Of a stretch of 30,480 bases of DNA, positions 5,795-22,935 are shown in pieces. Positions within the stretch are counted from its first letter, which is position 1, and every line of letters begins with the position of its first letter. A program made the translations under genes and the position numbers. The notes below the pieces were generated by a model. The model was given only the letters and a program-made list of their open reading frames with translations. It did not search any database and was not told the origin of the DNA. Source of the stretch: a virus; IMG/VR virus record IMGVR_UViG_3300042691_017836, positions 1 through 30,480 of that record; one strand, written 5' to 3'.

Positions 5795-6439
5795 TTATAA
5801 AATACTAATATATCCAGCAGAATCTTCTGGCCCTGGACACACGTTTCCGACAAAATCAACATTGAGTGTTTGGCGTATTCCTGGACCTTGAGGATAAACG
5901 CCATGTAGTAACCAGCTAGGAAAAATTACGATCATTCCCGGTTTTGGAGATATATGAACTACTTTATGTTTTACCGGAGTTAATGGATGATAGGGATCGG
6001 ACTGTAATACAAAATAAATTTGACCCGCTTTATCGTCGTTTTTATTTTGTTCCGGTACTTCGAGATAGGTCACAGAGCATACAGAATTTGGTCCATGATC
6101 GTGTATCGTATGATAACTGCCTTCTTCGCCGATCACAGTCCACGATCTGTTTGCTGAAATTCCTTGCCATTGACCTGGCATAAGACCGTGATGTACCAAT
6201 AACTTTTGTACGGTGTTTTCATACCACAATTTAAGTTCAGCCCATCCTTGTGGTTCTTCATGAACTTGGGATGGCATCCATGACGGGTTTATTAAGTAGT
6301 GCTGTCTAGATAATGGGCCTTTAGCTGTGGTATATGATGACCAATCTTCCGACGTTACATCACTGACTACTTTTTTAATAGTACCTAAATCAGCAATGTG
6401 ATCAGTGATCAGCCAATTTAATCCTTGACTAATTATCAA
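5795..6439 (-). CDS. 2-oxoglutarate/Fe(II)-dependent oxygenase-like protein
   Basis: Probably a double-stranded beta-helix dioxygenase of the small phage/marine '2OG-FeII_Oxy_5' type, which couples 2-oxoglutarate decarboxylation to substrate hydroxylation. Visible features: YHTIHDHGPNSVCSVTYLEV (His113-Asp114-His115 as the first metal-ligand cluster), then GMIVIFPSWLLHGVYPQG with distal His179, then Arg189 in GIRQTLNVDF, placed to bind the 2OG carboxylate. At 214 residues the length suits the family. The start is TTG at 6439, overlapping the halogenase stop as TTGA; no in-frame ATG occurs before about residue 54, which would cut off conserved sequence. This suggests translation coupled to the halogenase. 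The substrate is unknown. Confidence 0.8.
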   Translation of the reverse strand: MIISQGLNWLITDHIADLGTIKKVVSDVTSEDWSSYTTAKGPLSRQHYLINPSWMPSQVHEEPQGWAELKLWYENTVQKLLVHHGLMPGQWQGISANRSWTVIGEEGSYHTIHDHGPNSVCSVTYLEVPEQNKNDDKAGQIYFVLQSDPYHPLTPVKHKVVHISPKPGMIVIFPSWLLHGVYPQGPGIRQTLNVDFVGNVCPGPEDSAGYISIL

Positions 6440-7908
6440 TTTATCTGCTCTGGATTGTCAATTAGCCATTGTAACGCCTGCCTATGATCAACAAATTCTC
6501 CAGAATCGATATCCTCTTTAGGAAGATTATACGGTATTGATTCCATTAGATGTTTAGCCTGCATGTCCACATCTTTCTGTGCTAATTCTTTGCTGATTAA
6601 TCCTAGACCATGCATTACTAATATCCAGTTGGCTTCTTTAAACATGACTTTTCTATTTGAAAATTCTGACTTACTAGGAAATTTGTATTTGTATAATTCT
6701 AATTTGTCTTCTAACCCCGAAGGTTTTGGAAGAGTCTTAGCAGATTTCCAAAAATCTGTGTCAGTTCTCTTAGTGATATAATGTAATGCTACATAATCTA
6801 AAATATTTTCAAGAAGTTCATCACATTCTTGATTGAATTCGTCGATCACCCGAGTAGTTTTAATTTCCGGTATATAAGCAGGTAATAAATGATTTAACTT
6901 GAATGCCTGTTGTATACTGCATCCTATTGAGCTGGCTTCTAGAGGTTCAATAAAACTGCTAGATAAACCAATAGCTACACAGTTTTTTACCCATGATTTT
7001 TCTAAACATCCTGCATCAAATTTTATTTTTTTTGCTACTTGTATTTTATGTCCATAGAGCTTTTCAACTTCGTCAACGGCCTTGTCGAAATCTATAAAAC
7101 TATCATTGAACACGTAACCATTGCCGTATCGTTGTTGAGTTGGAATTCTCCATAACCATCCATTGTTCATTGCCTTTGCTAGTGTCCAACTGGGAATTTT
7201 TTCTGTGGTTTCTGTAGGGAATGCGATAGCACTGTTCATTGGAAGATATTTTTGGTAACTGCGCCATTTGACCCCCATAGTTTTGTGCAAAAGCAAACGA
7301 TGAAATCCGGTACAATCGACATATAAGTCATAACTAAGGTGTTTATCAGTTGTGGTAATTAACTCTTTGATTGCGCCCTGCTCATCCAATTTAACTTCTT
7401 TGATTTCTGCTTTTATGGTGTTTATTTTTCTTTGATCGCAGAGATCGTGTAGGAATTTATTTAATTTGGTTGTGTTAAAATGAAATTGGTTTATAGTAAA
7501 GAACGGCATTCTATGCAGACTAGGTTCTATATATTTGTGAATGAGATCCTTGGGGCCTGCTCCGTTGGCTATCAGATATGAGTATACAAATTTACTGTTG
7601 CTTTGACTCTCCATGTTAAAAGCACTGCTAATTGTGTGAATATAATTTGTACCATCGCCATTCCAGTTATCAAAATTAATACCGTATTTAAAAGTACAAT
7701 CAGTATGTTTGACCAGCTCAGTGGTACTGATATCACAGTGCTGCATGAAGGTAGCCCAATGTTCAGTGCTGCCTTCTCCTACCCCTACGATTCCTATCTG
7801 ATCTGATTCTATCAAATCAATCTGTAGATTAGGATATGTTTTTTTTAAAATCAAAGCGGTAGTTACTCCGGCTGTGCCCCCACCTACTATAGCTATGTTA
7901 TTAATCAA
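6436..7908 (-). CDS. Flavin-dependent halogenase, tryptophan halogenase family
   Basis: Family members use FADH2, O2 and halide to make a hypohalous species that halogenates tryptophan or other aromatic substrates. Signatures seen: FAD-binding VGGGTAG at residues 8-14; VGVGEGST at 41-48; Lys74 in FKYGINF, the position expected for the catalytic lysine (Lys79 in PrnA); the halogenase motif WLWRIP at 251-256; and IEPLEASS with Glu324, matching the PrnA Glu346 region. At 490 residues it is slightly shorter than PrnA (about 540). It starts with TTG at 7908; an in-frame stop lies three codons upstream, so no ATG is available nearby. It overlaps the downstream oxygenase by four bases. Cyanophage relatives are known, including the characterised VirX1. 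The missing partner, a flavin reductase, is not in this window. Confidence 0.88.
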   Translation of the reverse strand: MINNIAIVGGGTAGVTTALILKKTYPNLQIDLIESDQIGIVGVGEGSTEHWATFMQHCDISTTELVKHTDCTFKYGINFDNWNGDGTNYIHTISSAFNMESQSNSKFVYSYLIANGAGPKDLIHKYIEPSLHRMPFFTINQFHFNTTKLNKFLHDLCDQRKINTIKAEIKEVKLDEQGAIKELITTTDKHLSYDLYVDCTGFHRLLLHKTMGVKWRSYQKYLPMNSAIAFPTETTEKIPSWTLAKAMNNGWLWRIPTQQRYGNGYVFNDSFIDFDKAVDEVEKLYGHKIQVAKKIKFDAGCLEKSWVKNCVAIGLSSSFIEPLEASSIGCSIQQAFKLNHLLPAYIPEIKTTRVIDEFNQECDELLENILDYVALHYITKRTDTDFWKSAKTLPKPSGLEDKLELYKYKFPSKSEFSNRKVMFKEANWILVMHGLGLISKELAQKDVDMQAKHLMESIPYNLPKEDIDSGEFVDHRQALQWLIDNPEQIN

Positions 7909-8460: not shown

Positions 8461-9456
8461 TTAATACCCGTATAGTTCCCAACCGTAGCTGGCCCAACCG
8501 CTACCACCGCTTGTAACAACTATGCGGTATGCTAGGTATGGTGTAGTATTGGTTGATTGGTAATCCAGTGCTTGGCGGTCAAATGCTGAGCCTGGGCCGC
8601 CACCGTCACCTGTAATAATTGTGGTCCAGTTTCCAGCATTATGGAAGTTTGCACCTTGACCACTATCGTTACTACCTTGAATAGTAAATGCTTGTAAATG
8701 GTTAGTGTGAGCAATTAGACGTAGTTGATTTACAACAACTCCGTTAGGATATTTGTTACCCATGTAAACTGCACAAATTCCGTTAAAAACAGCTGGACTA
8801 GAATGCCAACCGTAGCTTAGACTTCGCGTACGATCATCTCCCAGGCCATCGCTGGCCGCTGATCCAGCACCGCCTGCACCGTTATTTCTTACAGCAGCGT
8901 TTTGCATATTCTGTTGACTATGTGGCATGTCAGCAGTATTAAGAGGAAGTTTAGGAACGTATTCTAAAATTGTATATTGTCCCGGCACACTTTGGCCGCT
9001 GCCACTACCGTCCCACCACTCAGTGTGGAATAGATGCGCATTGTGATTACCGTCTACGTATGCTCGATATCTGTGCCCCATACGAGCTTTTTGTCCAGCG
9101 CCCCAGCTTGGAATATCCCATTCTATGGCGTTGGTATTTTCTATTTCGTGTCCGCCTCTAGTAAAGCGGCCATACTCTATGTCATCTCTGTAAAAAATAT
9201 AGTGCATTATCATGTGGCTGGAACCATAGTCTCTGGTGTGAATGCACCATGTGGATCTTATTCTACTGTCTGATCTTACTGGAGTAAAATCGGCATAGCC
9301 TCCAGGCATCCAATAATAGGTGTTATCACCACGAATCCAGCCGTTTCGGTGTGTGTAACTTACTCGTTGAACTACCCTGTGAGCGAAATCTTGTATGTTT
9401 CTGGATATTGATCCATCTTCACTTTGAATGGTTGAAACGTTTAATTGGGCGGTCAT
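8461..9456 (-). CDS. Receptor-binding-type virion protein with discoidin-like C-terminal domain
   Basis: The last and longest (331 residues) member of the tandem array. Residues 1-170 are the common module: RVVQRVSY, then NTYYWMPGGYADFTPVRSDSRI, IMHYIFYRDD, EWDIPSWGAG and RMGHRYRAYVDGNHNAHL, ending TEWWDG...GQYTILEYV. After a Gly/Ala/Asn-rich linker, residues about 215-331 look like an F5/8 type C (galactose-binding-like) domain: LQAFTIQGSNDSG, NWTTIITGD and the terminal YLAYRIVVTSG...GWASYGWELYGY. Such domains commonly bind glycans. The ATG overlaps the previous stop by four bases (ATGA). Confidence 0.75.
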   Translation of the reverse strand: MTAQLNVSTIQSEDGSISRNIQDFAHRVVQRVSYTHRNGWIRGDNTYYWMPGGYADFTPVRSDSRIRSTWCIHTRDYGSSHMIMHYIFYRDDIEYGRFTRGGHEIENTNAIEWDIPSWGAGQKARMGHRYRAYVDGNHNAHLFHTEWWDGSGSGQSVPGQYTILEYVPKLPLNTADMPHSQQNMQNAAVRNNGAGGAGSAASDGLGDDRTRSLSYGWHSSPAVFNGICAVYMGNKYPNGVVVNQLRLIAHTNHLQAFTIQGSNDSGQGANFHNAGNWTTIITGDGGGPGSAFDRQALDYQSTNTTPYLAYRIVVTSGGSGWASYGWELYGY

Positions 9457-9992
9457 GGTGCTGTCACATACTCCTCTACCATTACGTAACTTGGTACTGA
9501 TCTACTAGTGTCGCTGCCGTCAAGCCAACGACGGCCGTTGAAATGTGTTGAGTGCGTTCCGTCACCGTATTGTCTAACTTGATATCCCATCATACCTGCT
9601 CGCCCCGCACCCCAACTAGGAACTTCCCATCTATGAACATGTGCATGACTCATGTGCGTTCCTGATTTACTGTGACGAGCATATTCTTGACCACCTGCAT
9701 AAAATTTCCAATGAGTGATACTGTGGCTATTTTGACGATGCCCCACAGGAGCATTGCAGGTATATACCAATATACTGTTGCTATACATGGGAGTAATACT
9801 CAAAGAATTTCCTGGAATTGGTCTGTATTCGTTTCCTGGATTCCAAAGTCCTCCACCGCCTTGCTCTGGATTTCCACCACCGTGGAATCGCTTGTAAATT
9901 CTCTGCACCAATCTTCTTTGAAAATAAGTGGTGGCTAAACTGACACTGGCAGTTGAGTTAGTAATGGTATTAACTCTTAAAGTTGCAGTCAT
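9453..9992 (-). CDS. Array paralogue, receptor-binding-type virion protein
   Basis: A 179-residue subfamily-I module. It shows RRLVQRIYKRF, NEYRPIPGNSLSITPMYSNSI, SITHWKFYAGGQEYARHSKSGTHM, RWEVPSWGAGRAGMMGYQVR and WLDGSDTSRSVPSYVMVEEYV. It is the most divergent of the subfamily-I copies, with many His and Met residues in the middle. It sits between a chaperone-like gene (two bases upstream) and the discoidin-tailed copy (four-base overlap). The beta-sandwich and tail-tip role are inferred from the repeated pattern and location. Confidence 0.7.
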   Translation of the reverse strand: MTATLRVNTITNSTASVSLATTYFQRRLVQRIYKRFHGGGNPEQGGGGLWNPGNEYRPIPGNSLSITPMYSNSILVYTCNAPVGHRQNSHSITHWKFYAGGQEYARHSKSGTHMSHAHVHRWEVPSWGAGRAGMMGYQVRQYGDGTHSTHFNGRRWLDGSDTSRSVPSYVMVEEYVTAP

Positions 9993-9994
9993 AA

Positions 9995-10324
9995 TTATTT
10001 AGGATACTTGGCTTTGATTTCTAATCTACGTGCTTGTAATGCCTCAGCTTTTTCGGGACGATTTTCAACTACCATTTCCCATAGTGCAACTAGAATTTCA
10101 TCTTTACCGGGGTATTCACCAGGTGTTGATCTTTTCTGGGCAATTTTCATCAATCTAATTTCTTCTTTGATTGTTTCCCATTTAGCAGCTAATGCTTCTC
10201 TGCTGGGCATTGGTTCGCTTGGTTCCATCCACGAAATATCTTCATAGTTGGGGCCTCTTACACCGTACTGGCGACCTGCATAGAATCTATGCATAACTTC
10301 ACCGAAATCTATTTCACTTGACAT
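9995..10324 (-). CDS. Possible tail-fibre assembly chaperone-like protein
   Basis: A 109-residue charged protein, unlike its beta-rich neighbours. The first 35 residues include HRFYAGRQYGVRGPNYEDIS and a WMEPSEPMPS segment. The rest is helical: REALAAKWETIKEEIRLMKI and DEILVALWEMVVENRPEKAEAL. Small helical proteins with such an N-terminal segment next to fibre genes are often tail-fibre assembly or tail-assembly chaperone (XkdW-like) proteins; this assignment is by pattern and context. A strong AGGAG site precedes the ATG. A 44-base gap upstream separates it from the preceding fibre gene. Confidence 0.45.
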   Translation of the reverse strand: MSSEIDFGEVMHRFYAGRQYGVRGPNYEDISWMEPSEPMPSREALAAKWETIKEEIRLMKIAQKRSTPGEYPGKDEILVALWEMVVENRPEKAEALQARRLEIKAKYPK

Positions 10325-10368
10325 GTTTTATCTCCTAATCTTTTGGTTGTATAATACCATAATGTTAT

Positions 10369-10920
10369 TTAGCGGGCAGTAACTATGCCTTCGGTATTAT
10401 CAGCACCGGCTGGTAATCCTGATTGTGCCCATTCTTCAACTATTAACTGTCCGTAGGCGTTTTGAGTTGATGTAGTGCCGTTCCAATAGTATGTTCTATA
10501 CAGTCTAGTTTCGTGGTTGTCGTTGGTATGAGATCGTACTTGATATCCAATACGTCCAGATGATGTACCCCAACTTGGTACATCCCACTTCAGTGTATTT
10601 CCATCTTCCACATGTGTGCCGCCCATACCATGTCTATAATAAAGAACACCATTAACATAAAATCTCCAATGGCTGATACTGTGGGCGGCGTTTGACCAAG
10701 CTGTTGGCACACGCCAAATAAACACAATCCTGCTGTCTGCACGTTGGGGAGTAAAATCTACAAATCCTCCTGGTGCCCAGTTGCTGGTAGTGTCCGGATT
10801 CCATTCTCCTGAGGTATATTGACTATGATATCTTTGTATGCATCTAGTAGCCAGTTCTCTGATAGGAATTACCAGTGATCCAGTGCTGCTGGCTATATAG
10901 CTGGTGGTTAAAGTACCCAT
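10369..10920 (-). CDS. Array paralogue, receptor-binding-type virion protein
   Basis: A 183-residue subfamily-I member. The frame is open 13 codons further upstream, but ATG 10920 is chosen because it overlaps the previous stop (TAATG) and starts the conserved module (MGTLTTSYIASS). It contains IRELATRCIQRYHSQY, WNPDTTSNWAPGGFVDFTPQ, RADSRIVFIWRVP, HSISHWRFYVNG, GGTHVEDGNTLKWDVPSWGT, GRIGYQVRSHTNDNHETRLY and YWNG...GQLIVEEW. The short tail after VEEW (QSGLPAGADNTEGIVTAR) is not shared with the other copies. Confidence 0.75.
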   Translation of the reverse strand: MGTLTTSYIASSTGSLVIPIRELATRCIQRYHSQYTSGEWNPDTTSNWAPGGFVDFTPQRADSRIVFIWRVPTAWSNAAHSISHWRFYVNGVLYYRHGMGGTHVEDGNTLKWDVPSWGTSSGRIGYQVRSHTNDNHETRLYRTYYWNGTTSTQNAYGQLIVEEWAQSGLPAGADNTEGIVTAR

Positions 10921-11426
10921 TATAACACGATCTCCTCGATGAACAGCTGTCCGCGACAATTCTGATTTGATCCAACACCATCCCAGTATTCTGTGGTATA
11001 CATTCTAAATTCGTTGCTGTCATTACTATGGGCGCGATGTTGAAGACCGATACGACCGGTGCTGGTACCCCAGCTTGGAATTTGAAATTGCCATATGTTG
11101 CCGTTTTCTCCGTGCTGTAGGCTGTCTTCCCAGCGATAATAAATTATGTTGTTGGCGTAAAAATACCAGTTTCCAATAGCATGTGTTGATCCACCGGCTC
11201 TTGCTATTGGTAGCCTCATAGTATAACTAATAACGCTGTCTGCTCGTTTTGGAGTGAAATCGTAAAAAGCGCCTGGCACCCAGTTGTATGAATTATCTGG
11301 ATTCCATACCCCGGCGGTATAATCCTGTCTAATATATTGTATGACTCGTGTGGTTAATTCTACCACAGGAATAGTCACAGATCCAGAGACATCTTGTAAG
11401 GTTGAAATCTGTACATTATTAGGCAT
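10920..11426 (-). CDS. Array paralogue, receptor-binding-type virion protein
   Basis: A 168-residue subfamily-I module, nearly the minimal unit: VVELTTRVIQYIRQDYTAG, WNPDNSYNWVPGAFYDFTPK, RADSVISYTMRLP, HAIGNWYFYANN, WQFQIPSWGTSTGRIGLQHR and EYWDGVGSNQNCRGQLFIEE. It begins with ATG three bases after the upstream stop and ends overlapping the downstream ATG by one base. It is close to the 11430-11939 copy across the WNPD and NCRGQ segments, which points to relatively recent duplication. Confidence 0.75.
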   Translation of the reverse strand: MPNNVQISTLQDVSGSVTIPVVELTTRVIQYIRQDYTAGVWNPDNSYNWVPGAFYDFTPKRADSVISYTMRLPIARAGGSTHAIGNWYFYANNIIYYRWEDSLQHGENGNIWQFQIPSWGTSTGRIGLQHRAHSNDSNEFRMYTTEYWDGVGSNQNCRGQLFIEEIVL

Positions 11427-11429
11427 CTA

Positions 11430-11939
11430 TTACACTCCTGGAAGATATTCTTGAATCACGTATTGGCCGCGACAGTTTTGTACTGAGCCGCCACCATCCC
11501 AGTATTGCGTACAATAAGGTCTAACTTCGTTGTTATCGTTGGCATAGGCCCGCATTTGGTAGCCGATACGTCCTGAAGCTGTGCCCCAGCTGGCCACATC
11601 CCATACATAGGTACGCATATCTTCGTGATGTTCTCCAGATACTCCATGTCGTCCTTGCTCAGCACCGTTGGCATAAAATATCCAGTGACTGATAGCGTGT
11701 GCTGAGCCAGAATTTCTTGCATAAGGAATCATGCAGGTCATGCGTATTCTAGATGTTGCCAGCAATGGAGTGTAGTCGTTGAACATACCAGGAATCCATG
11801 CATAGGTGGTATCAGGATTCCATTGACCACCATCATAGGTGGCTCTTGCTTCTTTGACCACACGATGTCCTAACTCTGTTAAAGGTATAGGAGTTGAATT
11901 AGGATCAAAACTAAGAGAATTTGTGATAAGTGTGCTCAT
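11430..11939 (-). CDS. Array paralogue, receptor-binding-type virion protein
   Basis: A 169-residue subfamily-I copy. The frame opens 23 codons earlier, but ATG 11939 is preferred because it gives the four-base ATGA overlap used throughout the array and an N-terminus like its paralogues (MSTLITNSLSFD). It contains LTELGHRVVKEARATYDGG, WNPDTTYAWIPGMFNDYTP, SAHAISHWIFYANGAEQGRH, YVWDVASWGTASGRIGYQMR and QYWDGGGSVQNCRGQYVIQE. Overlapping frames longer than this one on the same strand inside the gene are not supported. Confidence 0.75.
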   Translation of the reverse strand: MSTLITNSLSFDPNSTPIPLTELGHRVVKEARATYDGGQWNPDTTYAWIPGMFNDYTPLLATSRIRMTCMIPYARNSGSAHAISHWIFYANGAEQGRHGVSGEHHEDMRTYVWDVASWGTASGRIGYQMRAYANDNNEVRPYCTQYWDGGGSVQNCRGQYVIQEYLPGV

Positions 11940-12439
11940 GTTATTGGCAAATATTCCTCTACAAACAGTTGGCTGGTTCCAGTTTGATTTGATCCAACAC
12001 CATCCCAATGGTGCGTACCAAAAAATCTAGGTCGGTTGCTGCCGCCGTGCCGTCTTATTTGATATCCGATACGAGCACGACTAGTACCCCAGCTGTCAAA
12101 TTCCCATACATAGGTGTGTCGATATTCTGGGCTCTGACCTGCTATGCTGTGCCGGCCTTGTTCGGTGCTGCCGTTGCTGTAAAATACACAGCTGGAAATT
12201 GCATGACCGTCGGTGTGTGCGAAATTAAAACACCAAGTGGCTCTAATTCTACTTGATGCCGAAGCTGGCTGATAATCAACCCATAATCCTGGAGCCCATG
12301 CGTAAGAGTCGCTGGGTTCCCAACTACCATTTTGATAGGTTTGACGATATTCTTTAATAGTACGCTGACGTAGTTGAGTCAGTGGTAAAAGATATTCTTG
12401 ATTTTGATGTTGTAGATTATCTACCCTTAGTGTTGTCAT
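11936..12439 (-). CDS. Array paralogue, receptor-binding-type virion protein
   Basis: A 167-residue subfamily-I copy: LTQLRQRTIKEYRQTYQNG, WEPSDSYAWAPGLWVDYQP, SASSRIRATWCFNF, HAISSCVFYSNGSTEQGRH, YVWEFDSWGTSRARIGYQIR and HHWDGVGSNQTGTSQLFVEE. The start overlaps the stop of the chaperone-like gene 12436-12870 (ATGA), and its own stop overlaps the next copy. It marks the switch from subfamily II (upstream) to subfamily I (downstream). Confidence 0.75.
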   Translation of the reverse strand: MTTLRVDNLQHQNQEYLLPLTQLRQRTIKEYRQTYQNGSWEPSDSYAWAPGLWVDYQPASASSRIRATWCFNFAHTDGHAISSCVFYSNGSTEQGRHSIAGQSPEYRHTYVWEFDSWGTSRARIGYQIRRHGGSNRPRFFGTHHWDGVGSNQTGTSQLFVEEYLPIT

Positions 12440-12870
12440 AGACCGAATAATCCTCGTTGGGCTCTCTGATTACCTGCTGGCTTCCCGTCTGGACGCTCAG
12501 GCCATGTTACACCAAAGATTTCTCTCCCACTGAGTGTAGCATTGCCTACTTGATCGGTGATATCAGCTAGAGCCTGCATGTAGTCCCGCCATTCTTGGGG
12601 AACAGGTTCCCCAGTTCTAGCTGCTCGTAATGTAACCCAATCTACTTCACGCATGCGTTCATCGCGCATTTGACGCAGTCTTCGTAATGGAGCTGCCGCT
12701 AGTAATTCTTGAGCTTTTGCAGTAATCTCTTCATCTGTGGGTCTAGCTTCTGGATCGTCATCCCAAACTAGAGTAGCTAGGTCATCAGCTTCGATGCTCC
12801 ATTTATTATTAGGACACAGCACGCCCAGTGCTGTTGCCACAGGTAAAATTTTAGTTTGTTCGTCTGCCAT
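12436..12870 (-). CDS. Tail assembly chaperone-like protein (Phage_tail_APC type)
   Basis: A 144-residue protein. Its second half, LRRLRQMRDERMREVDWVTL followed by RAARTGEPVPQEWRDYMQAL and ADITDQV, matches the pattern of phage tail/fibre assembly chaperone domains (L-R-x-x-R-D-x-x-x-x-x-x-D-W ... W-x-x-Y-x-x-A-L-x-D). The first half holds an acidic stretch (ATLVWDDDPEARPTDEEITAKA). It sits between the two subfamilies of the fibre array and is coupled to the downstream copy by a four-base overlap. An AAGGA site lies upstream of the ATG. It probably helps fold or attach neighbouring fibre proteins rather than being a virion part. Confidence 0.7.
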   Translation of the reverse strand: MADEQTKILPVATALGVLCPNNKWSIEADDLATLVWDDDPEARPTDEEITAKAQELLAAAPLRRLRQMRDERMREVDWVTLRAARTGEPVPQEWRDYMQALADITDQVGNATLSGREIFGVTWPERPDGKPAGNQRAQRGLFGL

Positions 12871-12892
12871 TGTATTAGATCCTTATTATTCT

Positions 12893-13507
12893 TTAAAATG
12901 CTATTTCTTGTGCGATTCCAAAGCTCACGCCAACTTCATGATCGTCTTGACCGTTTAGGTAACTGCCGTAGGTGGTATTTAACATGAACTCATGGTTGCT
13001 GCCGCCACTACTACGTGCAGCAAATCCGTAGGTTACTGGATCTGTGGTTCCCGGTCTGTCTACCCAAGGCAAGCAGATATGACCCGGTGTTGATGAATCG
13101 TTATTGTCATAGCGACTAACACCTGCACCAGTCCATCTACTATTGTATGTTTGATCGTTGACGTTGGCAAATGACGCACCGACTAACATTCCGTCTCTGA
13201 CTATGTTAAACACAATATTGTTTGTGGCTTCATAGGCCACACAAAATTCCACAAAGATATAACTGTCTAGACTTTTTGGAGTGATTGTAACATCCAAGGG
13301 ACGTATGATGGTGCCACCTTCTGAGATACCCGTGGCAAAAACATCGCCTCGGCTTCCACCGTCGTTGTTAGGGATATTGTAACGTAGACGCTGCATGGCA
13401 CGGCTCCATTTGACCTGTATGATCTGTCCTGGTTGATATATGGCGTTGGGATGTGCCACGCGAACAACGCCGCTGGTTCCTGAAATATTGTTTACTTTTA
13501 AGGTCAT
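12893..13507 (-). CDS. Array paralogue, subfamily II virion protein
   Basis: A 204-residue beta-rich protein. The shared subfamily-II pattern is: N-terminal MTLKVNNISGTSG and QPGQIIQVKW; ITPKSLDSYIFVEFCVAYEA; IVRDGMLVGAS; YDNNDSSTPGHICLPWVDRPG; then FAARSSGGSNHEFMLNTTYGS; and the terminal DDHEVGVSFGIAQEI. The stretch DSYIF...AYEA corresponds to ADSRI...W in subfamily I, so both probably share one fold. Its ATG overlaps the preceding stop (ATGA). A 22-base gap with an AAGGA site separates it from the chaperone-like gene. Confidence 0.75.
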   Translation of the reverse strand: MTLKVNNISGTSGVVRVAHPNAIYQPGQIIQVKWSRAMQRLRYNIPNNDGGSRGDVFATGISEGGTIIRPLDVTITPKSLDSYIFVEFCVAYEATNNIVFNIVRDGMLVGASFANVNDQTYNSRWTGAGVSRYDNNDSSTPGHICLPWVDRPGTTDPVTYGFAARSSGGSNHEFMLNTTYGSYLNGQDDHEVGVSFGIAQEIAF

Positions 13508-14058
13508 CCACTGATCTCCCTTGCTATACCATGACTAACCCCAATCTCGTGACCGTCTGTGCCTGTGGAACCAAGAGTTCTATTAAGAGCAAATGTATGG
13601 TTGCTGCCGCCACTGCTTCTTACAGCTAATTGATAGGTTCTCGCAGCAGTTGATCCCGCAAGATCAAACCAATTTATAGTACTAACCTGGGGTGTTGATG
13701 AGTAATCATTATCATATTGCGGAGTAAGTATATTACTCCATCTAGTATTACCTATATCTAAATTGTATCCAATTAAAGTACCATCGCGTTGTACAACAAA
13801 CGATGTGTCATGATGCATTTCATAGGCCACTGTCCATCGCAACCAAATGTAACTGTCCGCACGATATGGTGTGATGAGTAAATTTAGCTGAGTGATCACA
13901 TTGCCATTTCCGCTGTTGGTTGCTGAATAAGTGGTTCGCACATGAGTAGTTACTGTCTGAGTCTGCACAACTTTACCTTGGTGCTGCATCTGATGTGCGG
14001 CATTGAATACGATTTCTGTGCCTGATTGTGGTTGGAGATTGTTAAGAGTCACGCTCAT
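13504..14058 (-). CDS. Array paralogue, subfamily II virion protein
   Basis: A 184-residue subfamily-II copy. ATG 14058 is used rather than the start eight codons earlier because it produces the ATGA overlap and the conserved MSVTLNNLQPQSG start. Conserved pieces: LLITPYRADSYIWLRWTVAYE, VVQRDGTLIGYN, YDNDYSSTPQVSTINWFDLA, AVRSSGGSNHTFALNRTLGS and HEIGVSHGIAREIS. It is very close in pattern to the 12893-13507 copy, mostly differing in the N-terminal third and in the loop around residues 115-130. Confidence 0.75.
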   Translation of the reverse strand: MSVTLNNLQPQSGTEIVFNAAHQMQHQGKVVQTQTVTTHVRTTYSATNSGNGNVITQLNLLITPYRADSYIWLRWTVAYEMHHDTSFVVQRDGTLIGYNLDIGNTRWSNILTPQYDNDYSSTPQVSTINWFDLAGSTAARTYQLAVRSSGGSNHTFALNRTLGSTGTDGHEIGVSHGIAREISG

Positions 14059-14621
14059 ACAGCTATCTCCTCTACCACACACCAGCTTATACCCACTTCG
14101 TGGTCATCAGTTGGACCATTCCAAGAACGATTCATACGAATATCATAGTTTGCACTTGAAGATGATCTTGAACCTATTTGATAAGTGTGCGGACCAACTG
14201 TGCCTGGGGAGTCAATCCAGCAATGATGCTGGTATGTTGGGGTACTATTTTGATCATGTGAATGTTCATAGTCAGCACCACCCATACCGCTGTATCTAAC
14301 ATTACCAACTTCTGAGTTGAATCCAATTACTGTGCCCCCACGGATTGCCTGAAATGTTATATCATGATGGGCTTCATAAAAAATCCACCATTTTAGGATA
14401 ACTTTACTGTTGGCTCTCTTAAGTGTGATATTAACATCCAATCCACTGATTGGTCTACTGGTGTTATCATTATAGCTGTTATAGGTCTGCACACCTTGAA
14501 ATTTTCTCCAAACAGTTTGTATTGTCTGCCCAGCAGCGTACAAGGTAGTGTTGTTTGGCATTGCTATGAGATGGTTGGCCTCATGTGGTCCTTGTAATTC
14601 GTCAGTGACCAGTGTGCTCAT
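14055..14621 (-). CDS. Array paralogue, subfamily II virion protein (first of the array)
   Basis: A 188-residue subfamily-II copy and the first gene of the nine-member array. ATG 14621 overlaps the stop of the upstream fibre gene by one base (TAATG); a start five codons earlier is less likely. It contains AAGQTIQTVWRKFQGVQTY, VNITLKRANSKVILKWWIFYE, AIRGGTVIGFN, SMGGADYEHSHDQNSTPTY-type loop residues rich in His, WIDSPGTVGPHTYQIGSRSS and DDHEVGISWCVVEEIAV. It ends in a four-base overlap with the next copy. Confidence 0.75.
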   Translation of the reverse strand: MSTLVTDELQGPHEANHLIAMPNNTTLYAAGQTIQTVWRKFQGVQTYNSYNDNTSRPISGLDVNITLKRANSKVILKWWIFYEAHHDITFQAIRGGTVIGFNSEVGNVRYSGMGGADYEHSHDQNSTPTYQHHCWIDSPGTVGPHTYQIGSRSSSSANYDIRMNRSWNGPTDDHEVGISWCVVEEIAV

Positions 14622-15298
14622 TAGACTATGCTCCAATCTCCATTAACTGTCACCGTTTGTCCAGCAGCAATAGTTATTGGTCCTGCACTCATAGCGTTGG
14701 TTCCTGCAGGTATTGTATAAGTGTTTATACTGGTTTGATTTTGGTACACCGGAAAGCTTCCAGTGATACTGGGAATTCCAGTTATGTTTAGATTTGCACC
14801 AACAGTGGTGTTTCCTGTTGAAGTCACAACGGTAGATGTCAGTGTTCCAGAACTTGGCTGAAAGGTAAGTTTAGTACTGCTGACTCTAGCTGTGGTAATT
14901 TGTCCTGTAGTGGCTGTTGTAAACGCCACATAGTTGGAAGCAGCGTCTGCGGCTTCGTCAGATATGACTACGGAATTCGTGGCCCAAGACAATGTACCTG
15001 ATCCGTTGGTAGTCAACGCCTGTGTGTTAGATCCGTCAGTTGCGGGCAGTGTCCATAACACATTAGCTGAAACTGTTCCTGGAGCCTGGAACCCAACATA
15101 ATTAGAACTGTCAGCATCACCAAATCTCAAGTCGCCTTGAGCCTGTATCAGTGTATCACTTGCGATTACAAATAAACCGGTTCCGGATGCATCAATGGTG
15201 ATGTTTTGATTGTCAGCAGCAGACAACGTGGTGTTATCAACTTGAACACCGCCAACACCTTGATTACCAACCGATCCTGCTGTATGTTTTCTACCCAT
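14621..15298 (-). CDS. Tail fibre-like virion protein
   Basis: A 225-residue low-complexity beta-rich protein, rich in Thr, Ser, Ala and Gly. Early it shows MGRKHTAGSVGNQGVGGVQV, then DLRFGDADSSNYVGFQAPG and LWTLPATDGSNTQALTTNGS, the 'LPxxDGSxGQxLxTxGxGxLxW' type repeat common in phage fibres. It ends AMSAGPITIAAGQTVTVNGD then WSIV, a C-terminal signature I associate with T4-like cyanophage fibres. There is an AGGAG site seven bases upstream. It precedes the paralogue array with a one-base overlap and may be the shaft on which the array proteins assemble. Confidence 0.75.
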   Translation of the reverse strand: MGRKHTAGSVGNQGVGGVQVDNTTLSAADNQNITIDASGTGLFVIASDTLIQAQGDLRFGDADSSNYVGFQAPGTVSANVLWTLPATDGSNTQALTTNGSGTLSWATNSVVISDEAADAASNYVAFTTATTGQITTARVSSTKLTFQPSSGTLTSTVVTSTGNTTVGANLNITGIPSITGSFPVYQNQTSINTYTIPAGTNAMSAGPITIAAGQTVTVNGDWSIV

Positions 15299-15651: not shown

Positions 15652-15659
15652 TATTTAGT
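15652..15659 (-). promoter_or_regulatory. Late-promoter-like box (ACTAAATA) after the 2426-residue gene
   Basis: The minus strand reads ACTAAATA, six of eight matches to TATAAATA, overlapping the stop codon of the giant gene. The predicted +1 near 15646 gives a leader of about 14 bases carrying GGAG before the ATG at 15632. This is nearly the same leader length as at 22954-22961. Confidence 0.5.
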
Positions 15660-18600
15660 TTAAAAAGTAGTTGAATGCCAACGGAAGGCCAGTTACTCCC
15701 CCTCTGAAATCAAAGGTAGCATTCATTTTAATCGCACCGCCTGTGGTAGTAGTTATGATATTTGAGCTGATAAACACTGATCCTGCTGTCACTGAGTTAA
15801 CGTTCAAGCTAGCACCACCACCACCAATTTGGCTGCCAATATAGGCTTTGATCGCTCTCTGTGTAGGTACGATATTGTCTGAATCCGCAGTAAAGAACGG
15901 GTCTGTAGAGAATTCAGTGATCGTAGCCGAACCGCCACCTAGTGTCACGTTGCCTAAATTAAGTTCTTGCAGGCCCGAAATATTAAAAGCATCAGCATTT
16001 AATGTAGCAATACCAGTTGATTGTTCAATGTTAAACAGGTCGCCAACTCGGAAGTTACCGTCCTGGTCTGTGCTTGTAAAGAACACACGGCCACCGTTGG
16101 AATCAACTGCTTCGTTGGCTGGAATAGGCGGCTGCAACGGAGAGTTAGGATAGTTAGTTTCAATAAAACTACCAGTACCTATGTCCAAGAAGTCATGCCC
16201 AGTTAAACGACACTGGCTATAACGCAGTCTGGTGGTGACCGTTACAGCATCTTCAGGTGCTTCGCCGATGGTTAAATTAGGACTGATCTGTAAGAATGCG
16301 GTGTAGGCTCCATCGTTGACGCCCAAGAACGTGATAACATTCACTAATTTAAATGTGCGATCTGGTAGATGTCCAAACACCACATTAGATCCCGGAGTTG
16401 GTTGTTCAGTGATCTGTCTCACTGCTACAAATGCGCCTGGTTGGAACACGTTGGCGTAACCGTCGCCGATGTCTACTTCACAGCTGCTGGTGACATACTG
16501 CGTGCCTCGGTTAACAAACGATGGATTGGCCAATACTCCCGATCCTCGTCTCACGGTTACTGGTGCTTCAAAGGTGTTGTTAGGATCCGTGAATGTTATA
16601 GTTGGTTCAGTAGTATATCCAGAACCAGGCTCTGTGATGTTAATCTGGAATATCTTGTTAGATGCCACCAACGCACGAGCTCTAGCAGTGGCTCCAGTTC
16701 TAATGTATGTGGCTACTGTGCCTGTGCTAGCGCCAACACCTACAAATTGACCATAACGATTTCTGTTACCAAAAGTGACAGCTGAGAATCCACTGGCTGC
16801 TGTAGATGTAGCTCTTAGAGTCCATGTGATACCGTCTGGAGAAGTTGCTGCTGCTGTGGTTGTACTCACAGCAAGGAATACTCCTTGACCGTATGTGACC
16901 TTGGTCCATTGTGCTGTTGATGGCAGTGTGCTGGCAGTCCACGTAATACCATCTAGACTGTAGGCAGCTACAGTACCACTGGTGTTAGACACAGCTACGA
17001 ATCTGTTATTACCGTAGGCTATACTGTTCCAGTTCGATGAACTTGGCAGTGTGCCTGCAGTCCATGTGCCCGTGACTCCTGATGTGGTAGCATAATTTGT
17101 AACTGCGGTTCCACTCTTGATGGCTACGAATCTGTTTTTACCGTATGCAATAGCTGTGAAACCAGTGGTGGTAAGTGTGCCAGTTTGATCCCAGTTTTCA
17201 CCATCATTGCTGATCCGCACAGTGGTTACATCGCTGGCTATTGCTACAAATTTCTGTGCGCTGAAACCACCAAATGCCACATCTACCCATGTTGCTGATG
17301 TCTGCATACTGGCGGCTGACCAAGTAATGCCGTCATCTGAATATGCACCTGTGGTGTTGGCTGAGGTTCCAGCAACTGCTACGAATTTGCTGACTTTGCC
17401 CACTGTGGATCCGTCATCAAACAAGCCAGCAGTCATAGCTGACCAGTTTGCCGCACTCGGCATTAAGCTGGCTCGAGTATCCCATGCAATACCATCTTCA
17501 GATGTTGCACCCACTGTGCTGCCACCTCTTAGAGCTACATATCTGCCACCTATGCCATATCCTGCATGATCAAAGTTTAAGATAGCTCCAGTTGCAGCAT
17601 TAACCGCGGTGATGGTTATCACTAGGTCGTTGGCTGTGCTCAACCCACCGAGACTGGTTCCCAGTATGGTAATGGTTTGTAATCTCACATATCCTGTACC
17701 AGCGGTCTGTAAGGACGGTGTGTATTTCCATCCGTTGCGTATCACAGTAAATGTAGCACCAACACCGGCACCACTGTAGGTGCCGGTGACTGATGCGTAT
17801 ACCGCTGCGGTTTCTCCGTATTTGACAGCGGTCCATGTGCCTGAGGTTGGCAGTGTAGCTGCTGTGGATGTGTAGCCGGGTGCTGAGAATGTTACTCTTG
17901 GTTCGATGATATAGGTGCTAGAAGCATCTGGTGATACTATTGCTGTGCCTGCTATCAAATGATCAAATCCTGCTGTGCCATCGGATTCTTTGACCAAGCC
18001 TGCTACTTTAGTGCCTGAATTATATGTGTCGATAATACCAAACTGTCCTACACCTGCACCGCCTGTGAGCACGATTTTCATACCTATATAGGCTGTGCTG
18101 GTCTCACTATCTGTGGCAGCAATAGTCACTGAAGTTGATGTGCCGCCCTGGCAGGTGTTGGAATTTGTAATATAACCAAATCCACCAAAATTACCTACAG
18201 CTTCTTCAGCGTCGGTACTGTCTTCAACTAGATCCAACATGCGTACTTCGAACACAGCGTCATCACGGAATTCATCCTGCTGAACTGATCCTCCAGTGCC
18301 GCCACCTGTAATGACATATGTGACTTCAGTGTAATCAATACCAGCATTGGTAAATTCAAATTGTGTCAGTGCCGATCCGTCTGTGACAATGCGATCAATA
18401 ACTGCTTCAAATTGCAGTCTATTATCTACTACGGCTGTGCCAGGTGTTTCACTGGCATCAAATCCTTCTGCCACAGCTCCAAAATCTCCGTATGAACAGT
18501 TACCGTTGGTGCCACGGATCCTACCACCATTTTCTGCTAGATATCCGATGTGCGCATAGTATGAGAACACTGATACCAATTCAGCACGACCGTTGTTGGT

Positions 18601-21600
18601 GATCCAAGCACCAATACCGTCTGATATAACCTGTGTGAAGTCGTTGGAAACGATGGAATCATTACCACCATTGTGCAGCGAGCCGTCGATCTTCTGTCCC
18701 ACGGCGGCTGTACCCAGTGTGGTCACCCCTTGTACGTATGGTGAGCGAGTGTTGATCCAGGTACGGTAATCTTCTGGACCCCAACCTGGATCCAAGGAAC
18801 AGTAGGCTCCGGCCGAAACTCTTGATGTACCGTACTCATTAGGTGCTAAAAGATCGCCTGTGAGTCCCTGCAGTGTCTGATCTCTAACACCTGTACCATC
18901 ACGTAGATAATACATGTCTTCTTCTAGGCTGCCAACCACGCTGTTACCATAGTATCTAGCGGCATATCGAGATTTGTAGTTGCCTGGATATTTCAAATCA
19001 TATTTTAGTGCGTCAATATATGTACCAACGTCTCGCAGGCATGCTTCACTGCTGTAATACAAGCTCACAGTCATAGATCCAGATGCATTAGATGCAATGT
19101 CTAGTGCTGTGTTTGAATCTCTTGTAGTTGAGATTTTAAAGGTTGTTGAGCTTACAACATTCTGTATGTAATATGTTGTACCTGTGCTAATACCGCCAAA
19201 TACAGTTCCTGAGAATCTCACTGCTGCATTACGCTGCATCCAAGCTGTGCTGGTGCAGGTAAACACATCTGTGGCCGCTGTGGCATTCGTTACTGTGGTT
19301 GTATATGTTGAGTCTATGTACGCATCGATCTCTGTAACAACATAATCTCTGTTTCTTTCTAACTGCAGAACTGCGTAATCCACCATCCTGTTACCAGAAG
19401 CACAGCGACTACCTTCGTTGGTGGCGCCATAAATGATATCATCTAACAGAGTCATCAGTGTTTCAATGCGAGCCTGTGCAGTAGCATCACCGCCTACGTT
19501 GGCCTTGGCTTGTGTTTTCACATAACTAAATGCTGCTCGGGTGGCTGCTTTCTGTCCTAGACTATAAACATCGCTGGCACTGGCTCTTAGATAAGCGTAA
19601 GCTGCATTTCTAGTTTGTCCGTTGGCGTTAAACATGAAGTCATAGCCTACTGCATCTAAGATAATTCTAGCATCTCTTTCACACTTATTAGGATCATAGG
19701 TTAATGATGGAAAGTTTGCATCAATATAAACTGTCATGTTTGATACAATAGTCTGAGCCGCCGCACTTAGAGTTGTAAATGCAGTAATTAGTGCTGTGGT
19801 AGAAGTTACAGCGTTGGTGGCAATCGGACGATCCTCGTAGGTCATTACCAAGGTTAAACCAGAACCGTTAGTAAATCCTGTGGCTGCTGCACCCGCATAA
19901 CTTGTTGATACCTTGAAATCAGTAGCTGTAAGTCCTGATGCAATTACGTAATAACGTGTGCCTACAGTGAGTCCGTTCTGTGTTTCAATAGGAACCACTA
20001 GGTCGCCTGCTTGTAGACTGTGACCAGCAGTAACAAAGGTGTCTGTGCCAGTTATCGAAGTCACTGTAACGATAGGAGGAGTAGCTGCGGTGGAATCGCC
20101 TGCTAATAGGTTAGTGATGTTGTCAATGTTAGCGCCGATGAATGCGCTGGCTGCAGACCCACCTGTGAGATTAGTCGCATCGGTCCATTGTGTAGCAGCA
20201 TTACCTGTGGATTTGGTCACTGTGGTGTTAGCAGCGATTTCTTGCATCACAGTTTTTAATCTACCATAAGCAGCCACAGTAGCAGTGACTTCTGATGCGT
20301 CAATTTCCAGCCCTGTGGTGCCGTCAAAATAGGCTAATCCTGCATTCAGTGTCTGCGTAAAACCGCCATAGGTCAAGTCATAGACCATAGCATCGACAAT
20401 AAAACCTGTGTCTCGTTTGCATATGGTTCTAGAATATTTCACTGAAGGGTAGTTTTCAGTGATAAAGGCGATGATTTCAGCTTTGATAAATTCTTTGTTT
20501 TCTTTTATCAGTGTTCTAGCATCACCGTAGCCTGTGAGATAAGCAGTATCGTAACCTGTAGGATCTGTGTTGGTAACCATGTGAGTGGTGCTGATTCGAT
20601 AATCGATCTGATGCTGTATTACTCTTACCAGCTGTGTGATATCTGCCTGTTCATCTGCGCTGGCATACGGAAATGCTGCACTCTGTGTAGCAGTGTTTCC
20701 TGAGCTTTCTGTGACGTTAGAGCCAGTGATAATTTGACTGACTACTGTTTCTAGTCTTGACAGCGCACCCATAGAATAGTAAGAATCTGCAAGATTCGTC
20801 AAGCTACCAGCAGGACCAGCGTTTGTGGATCTTAATTCGTCTCCAATCACGCAGGTCTGTTCTGGAACAATGATAGGCAACGTTTCTCTGTATTGCCCAG
20901 TAGCAATGCTGATAAGATTGTTAGGACTTCTACGAGCAGGCACACTGGCCAATGCTGCTGCGATCTGTGGAGCGGTTACTGCTGCTGCACGGGCAGTGAT
21001 AGCATCAGTGATTACTTCAACTAAACCAGCTGCTGTGGTATATGCTCCTGGTTCTGCTGTGAGGTCAGCATTGAAATACTGCGATACTGTGGCAGTTGAA
21101 TTGTCACCGTTCAAGGTCTGATAGTTCACTGCTGGAGCTGTCTGTGCTAGTACATCCTCGACTACAGTGACCATGTAATTATAGGCCGCTATGGATTCGT
21201 CTGATTCTGCAGCTAGACCAGGATATGCTTCTGTTTCTTCTGCGCTGAGTCCACCTATGAGAGCATTAGCTGCTCCTCTAGTTTTGACGTTGCCGCCATG
21301 TCTAAGATCATAGATCAATGCATCTACAACAAATCCCACATCTCTTTCACATTTGAAATCGTCGTAGACAAATGCCGATGTGAACGGTGCTATGTTGTTA
21401 GTGATCTGATTCTGTATGAATTCTGTGGTTTCTCGTTGTATGAACACACGATTAAGTTCTAATAGATATGTGGCATCGGGATTTCTAGGGCCACGTTCTA
21501 CCTGTTCACAGGCATATCGAATAGTCTTCCATGGCTTATCCCAGGTCTTGCCATGTATAGGTGCAGGAAGATCTGTGCCGTGTGGTGCTACAAAATAATT

Positions 21601-22935
21601 GTGATCAATTTCGCCTAGTGTGGCCCATTCTGGGTCTACACCGTCGGACCGTAGAACTTGACCTTCACGTCCGATAGGTAATCTTGTAGGGCCCGAACCG
21701 CTGTAGTAAACTAAATCTCCACGAACTGATAAGATATCAGTTTCAGAACCGATGTTTAGTAAGCTCCAATAGGTACCTGTGCTGTCTTGATCTGGTCTAC
21801 TATTAGCAGCACCTCCGCCTTCTGGTCCTATAGTTGATCCATCGTCACCTTCTGATCTGTGTGCCAGAAGACAGATATAGGCATTTGCGCCAAATCTCAC
21901 TGCATCGCCTAATTTATAATTTATATCGTCAGTCCATTCTCCTTGCCAAGCAATACCAGAATTAAGTCTTTGCCAATATGTGACATTAGGTGGCTCTTGA
22001 TTAGTATTGTCTGCTGTGGCTAGATAGGTATATCCGCGAAGTCTAACAACTTCACCGATTTTGTAAGAAGTACTATCATTCCAGTCTGATTGAAATTTGA
22101 ATCCTTCGCTGTATAAATCCCAATTTGATGTGCCTGTCGATGGAACAATCGCTGAGTGAATATTTTTTGCTACGTATTGATTACCACCGTATCGAACTAT
22201 GTCTCCTGGTTGGTATAGAGTTCCAGAACTCCATGTATCTTCAAATTCAATACCTTCTGCAAATTGTGCCCAACGACCTGCAGTGCTGTCTGTTAAGAAT
22301 GCGGCATCAGCAGTGTGCTGTGTGGTACAGATCCAAAGTCCTGCACCATATTTTATAACATCATTGAGTTTATATCTGGTAGCGGTGACCCAGGTACCTT
22401 TGTATTCTATGCCTTGGTTGAAACTGTCCCATTTAGCTTGATCAGCTTCTAGTCCCGATGCGGCTGTGGCTGCAGATGTATGATAGGTATTACATACATA
22501 AGTGTAACCGCCGTATCTAACTAGATCATTTACCTTGTATCGTGTGCTGACTGACCAAGAATTTTTCCAATCAAATCCTTCGGCATATAATGTCCATTTG
22601 GCTTGATCAGCTTCTAGACCTGATGCTGTTGTGGCTGTAGATGTGTGACTGTCATTGCAGATATATAACAATCCGCCATATTTCACCACATCATTAAGTT
22701 TGTAGAATGTAGAAGTATTCCAATCGCCGGTCCATGATTGGCCGTCGCTCATTTGATTCCATTTGGTAGGACTGTATTCTAGATCTGTGTTAAAATCCGC
22801 TGCGGAGGTATGACCTACAGCACAGATATAGGTGCGGGCACCGTATCTTATCACATCGTCTATGTAATAGACGGTGGAAGGGTTCCAGTCATTTTTCCAT
22901 ACAAATCTAATTCTACCTAGTTTGAATTCTGCCAT
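15655..22935 (-). CDS. Giant modular virion adhesin (2426 residues)
   Basis: Probably a very long fibre or baseplate-associated protein. Residues 1-~400 hold seven repeats of about 50-60 residues of the kind W-x-x-x-x-x-Y-x-x-x-D-V-V-x-Y-G-G-x-x-Y-x-C, like chitin-binding (CBM5/12-type) modules. Near 440-500 is PIGREGQVLRSDGVDPEW, then FVAPHGTD...GKTWDKPWKTIRYACEQV, a pectate-lyase-like start. A 'C-x-R-D-x-G-x-x-x-D-A-x-x-Y-D' module occurs four times, near 528, 837, 1083 and 1297. The most conserved part follows (VSNDFTQVISDGIGAWITNN, VSVFSYYAHIGYLAENGG). Residues ~1790-2085 form seven blades with DGITW and FVAV motifs. The C-terminus (FFTSTDQDGNFRVGDLFNIE, ITEFSTDPFFTADSDNIVPT) is shared with the gene upstream. 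A late promoter with a short leader lies before the ATG. Confidence 0.85.
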   Translation of the reverse strand: MAEFKLGRIRFVWKNDWNPSTVYYIDDVIRYGARTYICAVGHTSAADFNTDLEYSPTKWNQMSDGQSWTGDWNTSTFYKLNDVVKYGGLLYICNDSHTSTATTASGLEADQAKWTLYAEGFDWKNSWSVSTRYKVNDLVRYGGYTYVCNTYHTSAATAASGLEADQAKWDSFNQGIEYKGTWVTATRYKLNDVIKYGAGLWICTTQHTADAAFLTDSTAGRWAQFAEGIEFEDTWSSGTLYQPGDIVRYGGNQYVAKNIHSAIVPSTGTSNWDLYSEGFKFQSDWNDSTSYKIGEVVRLRGYTYLATADNTNQEPPNVTYWQRLNSGIAWQGEWTDDINYKLGDAVRFGANAYICLLAHRSEGDDGSTIGPEGGGAANSRPDQDSTGTYWSLLNIGSETDILSVRGDLVYYSGSGPTRLPIGREGQVLRSDGVDPEWATLGEIDHNYFVAPHGTDLPAPIHGKTWDKPWKTIRYACEQVERGPRNPDATYLLELNRVFIQRETTEFIQNQITNNIAPFTSAFVYDDFKCERDVGFVVDALIYDLRHGGNVKTRGAANALIGGLSAEETEAYPGLAAESDESIAAYNYMVTVVEDVLAQTAPAVNYQTLNGDNSTATVSQYFNADLTAEPGAYTTAAGLVEVITDAITARAAAVTAPQIAAALASVPARRSPNNLISIATGQYRETLPIIVPEQTCVIGDELRSTNAGPAGSLTNLADSYYSMGALSRLETVVSQIITGSNVTESSGNTATQSAAFPYASADEQADITQLVRVIQHQIDYRISTTHMVTNTDPTGYDTAYLTGYGDARTLIKENKEFIKAEIIAFITENYPSVKYSRTICKRDTGFIVDAMVYDLTYGGFTQTLNAGLAYFDGTTGLEIDASEVTATVAAYGRLKTVMQEIAANTTVTKSTGNAATQWTDATNLTGGSAASAFIGANIDNITNLLAGDSTAATPPIVTVTSITGTDTFVTAGHSLQAGDLVVPIETQNGLTVGTRYYVIASGLTATDFKVSTSYAGAAATGFTNGSGLTLVMTYEDRPIATNAVTSTTALITAFTTLSAAAQTIVSNMTVYIDANFPSLTYDPNKCERDARIILDAVGYDFMFNANGQTRNAAYAYLRASASDVYSLGQKAATRAAFSYVKTQAKANVGGDATAQARIETLMTLLDDIIYGATNEGSRCASGNRMVDYAVLQLERNRDYVVTEIDAYIDSTYTTTVTNATAATDVFTCTSTAWMQRNAAVRFSGTVFGGISTGTTYYIQNVVSSTTFKISTTRDSNTALDIASNASGSMTVSLYYSSEACLRDVGTYIDALKYDLKYPGNYKSRYAARYYGNSVVGSLEEDMYYLRDGTGVRDQTLQGLTGDLLAPNEYGTSRVSAGAYCSLDPGWGPEDYRTWINTRSPYVQGVTTLGTAAVGQKIDGSLHNGGNDSIVSNDFTQVISDGIGAWITNNGRAELVSVFSYYAHIGYLAENGGRIRGTNGNCSYGDFGAVAEGFDASETPGTAVVDNRLQFEAVIDRIVTDGSALTQFEFTNAGIDYTEVTYVITGGGTGGSVQQDEFRDDAVFEVRMLDLVEDSTDAEEAVGNFGGFGYITNSNTCQGGTSTSVTIAATDSETSTAYIGMKIVLTGGAGVGQFGIIDTYNSGTKVAGLVKESDGTAGFDHLIAGTAIVSPDASSTYIIEPRVTFSAPGYTSTAATLPTSGTWTAVKYGETAAVYASVTGTYSGAGVGATFTVIRNGWKYTPSLQTAGTGYVRLQTITILGTSLGGLSTANDLVITITAVNAATGAILNFDHAGYGIGGRYVALRGGSTVGATSEDGIAWDTRASLMPSAANWSAMTAGLFDDGSTVGKVSKFVAVAGTSANTTGAYSDDGITWSAASMQTSATWVDVAFGGFSAQKFVAIASDVTTVRISNDGENWDQTGTLTTTGFTAIAYGKNRFVAIKSGTAVTNYATTSGVTGTWTAGTLPSSSNWNSIAYGNNRFVAVSNTSGTVAAYSLDGITWTASTLPSTAQWTKVTYGQGVFLAVSTTTAAATSPDGITWTLRATSTAASGFSAVTFGNRNRYGQFVGVGASTGTVATYIRTGATARARALVASNKIFQINITEPGSGYTTEPTITFTDPNNTFEAPVTVRRGSGVLANPSFVNRGTQYVTSSCEVDIGDGYANVFQPGAFVAVRQITEQPTPGSNVVFGHLPDRTFKLVNVITFLGVNDGAYTAFLQISPNLTIGEAPEDAVTVTTRLRYSQCRLTGHDFLDIGTGSFIETNYPNSPLQPPIPANEAVDSNGGRVFFTSTDQDGNFRVGDLFNIEQSTGIATLNADAFNISGLQELNLGNVTLGGGSATITEFSTDPFFTADSDNIVPTQRAIKAYIGSQIGGGGASLNVNSVTAGSVFISSNIITTTTGGAIKMNATFDFRGGVTGLPLAFNYFLN

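Follow-up and report, generated by a model that had tools for sequence, protein, structure and literature searches.

Why would a phage keep nine paralogous adhesin-type genes side by side? Such an array lies in the window studied here, the 30,480-nucleotide stretch of IMG/VR virus record IMGVR_UViG_3300042691_017836. The original prediction, made from the bare sequence, proposed nine tandem genes in two subfamilies, which would encode either a multi-protein tip or a reservoir of variants that recombination could draw on to switch receptors. An ORF check of the window recovered all nine frames with the predicted ends, all intact, six of family I and three of family II (Table 1). The family alignments agree with this division (29-46% identity to I1 in family I, about 33% in family II) and the predicted motifs (DSRI/DSYI and others) are present. 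The genes are indeed paralogous, however they do not form the uninterrupted run that had been proposed: two other genes interrupt the array, and the layout is therefore three family II genes, a chaperone gene, four family I genes, a chaperone-like gene and two family I genes (transcription order g225, II1, II2, II3, chap1, I1, I2, I3, I4, chap2, I5, I6). ATGA or TAATG overlaps, said to occur at most junctions, were found at five of the six listed paralogue junctions (ATGA at II1/II2, II2/II3, I1/I2 and I5/I6; TAATG at I3/I4), and a 3-base gap separates I2 from I3.

Table 1. Genes of the head array and the preceding g225 gene, in order of transcription, with the evidence for each assignment.
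Gene	Product	Coordinates	Strand	Evidence
g225	Fibre-shaft or adaptor protein	14621..15298	-	C-terminal motif shared with relatives
II1	TNF/C1q-like head protein, 188 aa	14055..14621	-	phrog_6942 (tail fibre C-terminus) E 2e-13; tree slot II1
II2	TNF/C1q-like head protein, 184 aa	13504..14058	-	phrog_6942 E 9.3e-17; AlphaFold pLDDT 89.6, fold matches
II3	TNF/C1q-like head protein, 204 aa	12893..13507	-	phrog_6942 E 1.2e-11; tree slot II3
chap1	Tail-fibre-assembly chaperone	12436..12870	-	PF16778 E 7.5e-15; phrog_4912 E 3e-12; constant slot in relatives
I1	Head protein, 167 aa	11936..12439	-	Family alignment; tree slot I1
I2	Head protein, 169 aa	11430..11939	-	Family alignment; tree slot I2
I3	Head protein, 168 aa	10920..11426	-	Family alignment; tree slot I3
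I4	Head protein, 183 aa	10369..10920	-	AlphaFold pLDDT 85.9, fold matches
chap2	Chaperone-like, 109 aa	9995..10324	-	phrog_9114 E 0.0014; 48-73% identical genes in relatives' equivalent slot
I5	Head protein, 179 aa	9453..9992	-	Family alignment; tree slot I5
I6	Head protein, 331 aa, C-terminal extension	8461..9456	-	Family alignment

One member per family (I4 and II2) was modelled as a single chain with AlphaFold, the fold of the other seven proteins being assigned by alignment. Both are predicted to be TNF/C1q-like jelly rolls (Z about 10-14 over 113-147 residues) that match known members of this superfamily over most of the domain; the two subfamilies thus share a fold in the models, and the unrelated folds that would have spoken against the original prediction were not seen for this one pair of proteins. 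Among the structures ranked by Foldseek, a list from which absence does not exclude a fold, the best solved matches common to both models were the C-terminal domain of Chlamydia Pgp3 (Z 14.0 for II2, 12.2 for I4), the TNF-like lectin PLTL (11.7 and 12.8), BC2L-C (11.6 and 11.9), C1q heads (9.6 and 10.4) and BclA. Profile-profile comparison of families I and II gave a probability of 96% (E 3e-9) with larger alignments and a weak match with the window sequences alone. Since the models give the same fold and the profiles match, both families are, as modelled, one superfamily of usually trimeric TNF/C1q-like heads. This profile E-value and the recurrence of the layout in relatives, where its members show about 33-91% identity, argue for paralogy rather than chance.

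Family II resembles the C-terminal domain of phage fibres, both in phrog_6942 (E 1e-11 to 9e-17) and in residues 496-657 of orf22 in PDB entry 9efk (E 3.2e-8), of which we found no mention in the literature searched. Family I had no direct match to phrog_6942 or to 9efk orf22 and is tied to family II by profile. The preceding gene, g225, ends in the motif NAMSAGPITI..G..VTV..G.WSIV, including NAMSAGPITIAAGQTVTVNGDWSIV, within its last ~30 residues (a single site in the window, 14679-14698). The protein encoded immediately ahead of family II likewise ends in this motif in S-WAM2, in ACG-2014j and in the T4-like relatives; P-SSP7 gp17 also ends in it, and RN05-S has it as well. The g225 C-terminal cap is the putative docking site of the family II head; judged from sequence, the head proteins would sit on fibres, be present in virions and bind receptors. 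Of the interrupting genes, chap1 scored 55 bits against PF16778 (Phage_tail_APC; Pfam cut-off 26.6), which places it among the chaperones. Chap2 had no match in Pfam and matched phrog_9114, as did chap1, and is therefore termed chaperone-like only. Both occupy constant slots among the relatives.

The C-terminal extension of I6 weakly resembles a galactose-binding-like domain (PF22633, E 0.064, under the Pfam cut-off; phrog_22177, E 0.0025). Such extensions vary by phage, being found on I6 in the window and on five of the six family I genes of one relative (L012), two of them with Ig-like domains; they may be variable binding parts. The family I alignment contains 18 slot-specific columns. Searches of I6 or I4 against annotated phages returned no match, and a search of I2 against genome contigs no relative. 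In the T4-like record G008 (230 kb), the third gene of family I (L043 7168-10680) encodes 1170 aa, with Gly-rich domains after the head.

Relatives were drawn from public viral contigs, and wherever a contig spans the array the 3 + chap1 + 4 + chap2 + 2 arrangement is kept. In whole-record counts, three family II and six family I genes were found in six records (G002, G005, G006, G007, G009 and G010), three family II genes in G012, S-WAM2 and ACG-2014j, and three family I genes in G008. Judged by gp23, four of the counted records are T4-like; a photosystem gene is present in one. Since the majority of the records are fragmentary, G002 barely differs from the window and L009-L011 resemble one another closely, the records represent a smaller number of independent lineages. 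No head gene was gained or lost among relatives with the module. In trees of the window and its relatives, head genes cluster by slot and not by genome, with I1+I2, I3+I4 and I5+I6 as sister pairs; the three consecutive family II paralogues likewise form clades by gene position (window and eight relatives). The slots of L023-L025 were not resolved, and copies grouping by genome or shifting slot were not seen in these trees, with the possible exception of L014, whose I3 and I4 pair within their own genome. Against L004, to which the head array is 75-91% identical, dN/dS was 0.03-0.12 where computable, rough figures because synonymous sites are close to saturation. By these estimates, selection on the head genes is purifying and the genes are constrained. 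The adjoining fibre gene (15655-22935), compared with L004 1-3795, showed about 40% identity over 727 residues.

We regard the array as a genuine fibre-tip module, well conserved, in a T4-like water phage. The constant number and order of its genes among relatives suggest that different heads are co-assembled in fixed multi-part tips for receptor binding and not kept as spare variants. The multi-protein tip of the original prediction thus gains support from the common TNF/C1q-like fold, the constant copy number, the positional orthology and the fixed chaperone slots. We infer a fixed fibre-tip module with heterotrimeric heads, to which we assign a probability of roughly 0.55. Most probably, II1, II2 and II3 would assemble 1:1:1 into one heterotrimeric head, aided by chap1, and dock via their short N-termini on the g225 cap. 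I1-I6, together with chap2, would most probably give a second and a third heterotrimer or else a single head of six parts, and extensions such as that of I6 would add binding surface. Heterotrimers are favoured because the fold usually trimerises, the counts come in threes, the chaperones are few and fixed, and precedents exist in a virophage and in phage Pam3. The docking motif on the upstream protein, the ATGA/TAATG coupling, the trees by slot and the low dN/dS also speak for the module. It is tempting to go further and let nine C1q-like chains and two chaperones yield three obligate heterotrimers (or a heterotrimer and a heterohexamer), so that tips would carry several distinct binding sites at once, as the phage analogue of C1q; this fuller version is tentative. 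For the six family I genes there is a single chaperone-like gene, chap2, and its position splits them 4+2, a division not easily reconciled with two trimers. L017, where a 553-aa protein accompanies one family II-like and two family I genes, shows no clear multiple of three.

In complement C1q, three different chains (C1qA, B and C) make up one globular head; C1q is a vertebrate protein with a collagen stalk, and its likeness to the array is one of predicted fold only, with no descent claimed. The original prediction knew of no described system with this layout, which was too strong. In the virophage DSLV2, three consecutive paralogous tail genes fall, like family II, into clades by gene position and form a heterotrimer on co-expression; however, they belong to the tail-collar family PF07484, related to the T4 gp37 tip, and no C1q-like fold was reported (PMC12724248). 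The nine head proteins had no match to PF07484, and the two systems would share a principle but not a family. The myocyanophage Pam3, like the array, combines a TNF-like distal head with an assembly chaperone: its trimeric fibre gp24 is assembled by the dedicated trimeric chaperone gp25 at 3:3 (PMC9608196). Pam3 differs in that a single gene supplies its homotrimer, shaft domain included, whereas the heads of the array stand alone, are nine in number and go with two chaperone-like genes. The MAT fibres of Bdellovibrio (Bd2734, Bd2439) also carry TNF-like adhesive tips on trimeric fibres, but are single-gene fibres in a bacterium (PMC10769870). In P-SSP7, the shaft gp17 with its docking motif is followed, as in the array, by three family II-like genes (PSSP7_037-039), then by the chaperone-like 040 and a fourth family II-like gene, 041; P-SSP7, in contrast, is a podovirus with four heads and without family I. 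Of the proposals made here, the putative heteromeric assembly is the one of interest.

Wider C1q-like tail genes in phages occur in other numbers (one each in HTVC010P and RN05-S, three plus one in P-SSP7, four matching places in Lederberg and two in MEP402). The fixed count is therefore specific to families I and II, and these numbers speak against a strict rule of three. We also rejected "always three in the slot" as a general law, since the numbers and families after the fibre and g106 homologue vary: S-CAM1 and S-CAM3 have a trio of unrelated Gly/Cys-rich paralogues there, P-SSM2 and AG-345-F15 have two, and AG-345-P14 has a single gene. The tandem Gly/Cys-rich paralogues of S-CAM3 (L045 11442-14260) and S-CAM1 (L048 9703-12503) correspond to one another position by position.

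TNF/C1q-like proteins are homotrimers as a rule, and the main rival reading accordingly has every one of the nine genes make a homotrimeric head of its own, with a separate place to dock on fibres or baseplate; invariant docking sites would then explain the invariant copy number. HTVC010P and RN05-S, where a single C1q-like tip gene goes with one chaperone-like gene, and MEP402, where a small gene follows each of the two tail genes, fit this reading, and positional orthology is equally compatible with it. However, just two chaperone-like genes would have to serve nine heads, a single docking cap is recognised for them, and threes recur (family II in nine records, family I in G008, P-SSP7 before its chaperone-like gene), so that we consider nine homotrimers possible but on balance doubtful. 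Numerous small domains, alike and short at the N-terminus, could alternatively be stacked serially along the fibre as a multi-bead shaft, as in the bead-chain neck fibres of phage A-1(L) (PMC10966104), but several of the structures matched, such as C1q, BclA and Pgp3, are heads at a terminus, and the family II homologue in 9efk orf22 lies at the fibre C-terminus, which makes a shaft improbable. Least probable by far is the predicted store of adhesin variants swapped by recombination: tandem paralogy and the L014 I3/I4 pair, as local gene conversion would give, are in its favour, but the invariant layout, slot-wise trees and purifying selection on nine intact genes, in an array more conserved than the compared fibre stretch, all disfavour it.

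The tips of phage fibres are usually taken to be homotrimers. If the heterotrimeric reading is true, a conserved heteromeric tip would exist in freshwater and marine T4-like phages, possibly also in the model phage P-SSP7, and reading host range from genomes would change, because it would require looking at several genes jointly.

Two giant fibre proteins are encoded at 15655-22935 (2426 aa) and 22970-28582 (1870 aa) and have common repeated N-terminal modules (W...Y...D.V.YGG..Y); the head proteins of L017 carry an N-terminal module resembling these. The array is followed by a tryptophan-halogenase-like gene (6436-7908; phrog_2928, E 2.7e-106) and a 2OG-Fe(II) oxygenase gene (5795-6439). No match to this pair was seen in L012; L008 and L011 have a second halogenase-like gene, and in most relatives the pair keeps its place after the array.
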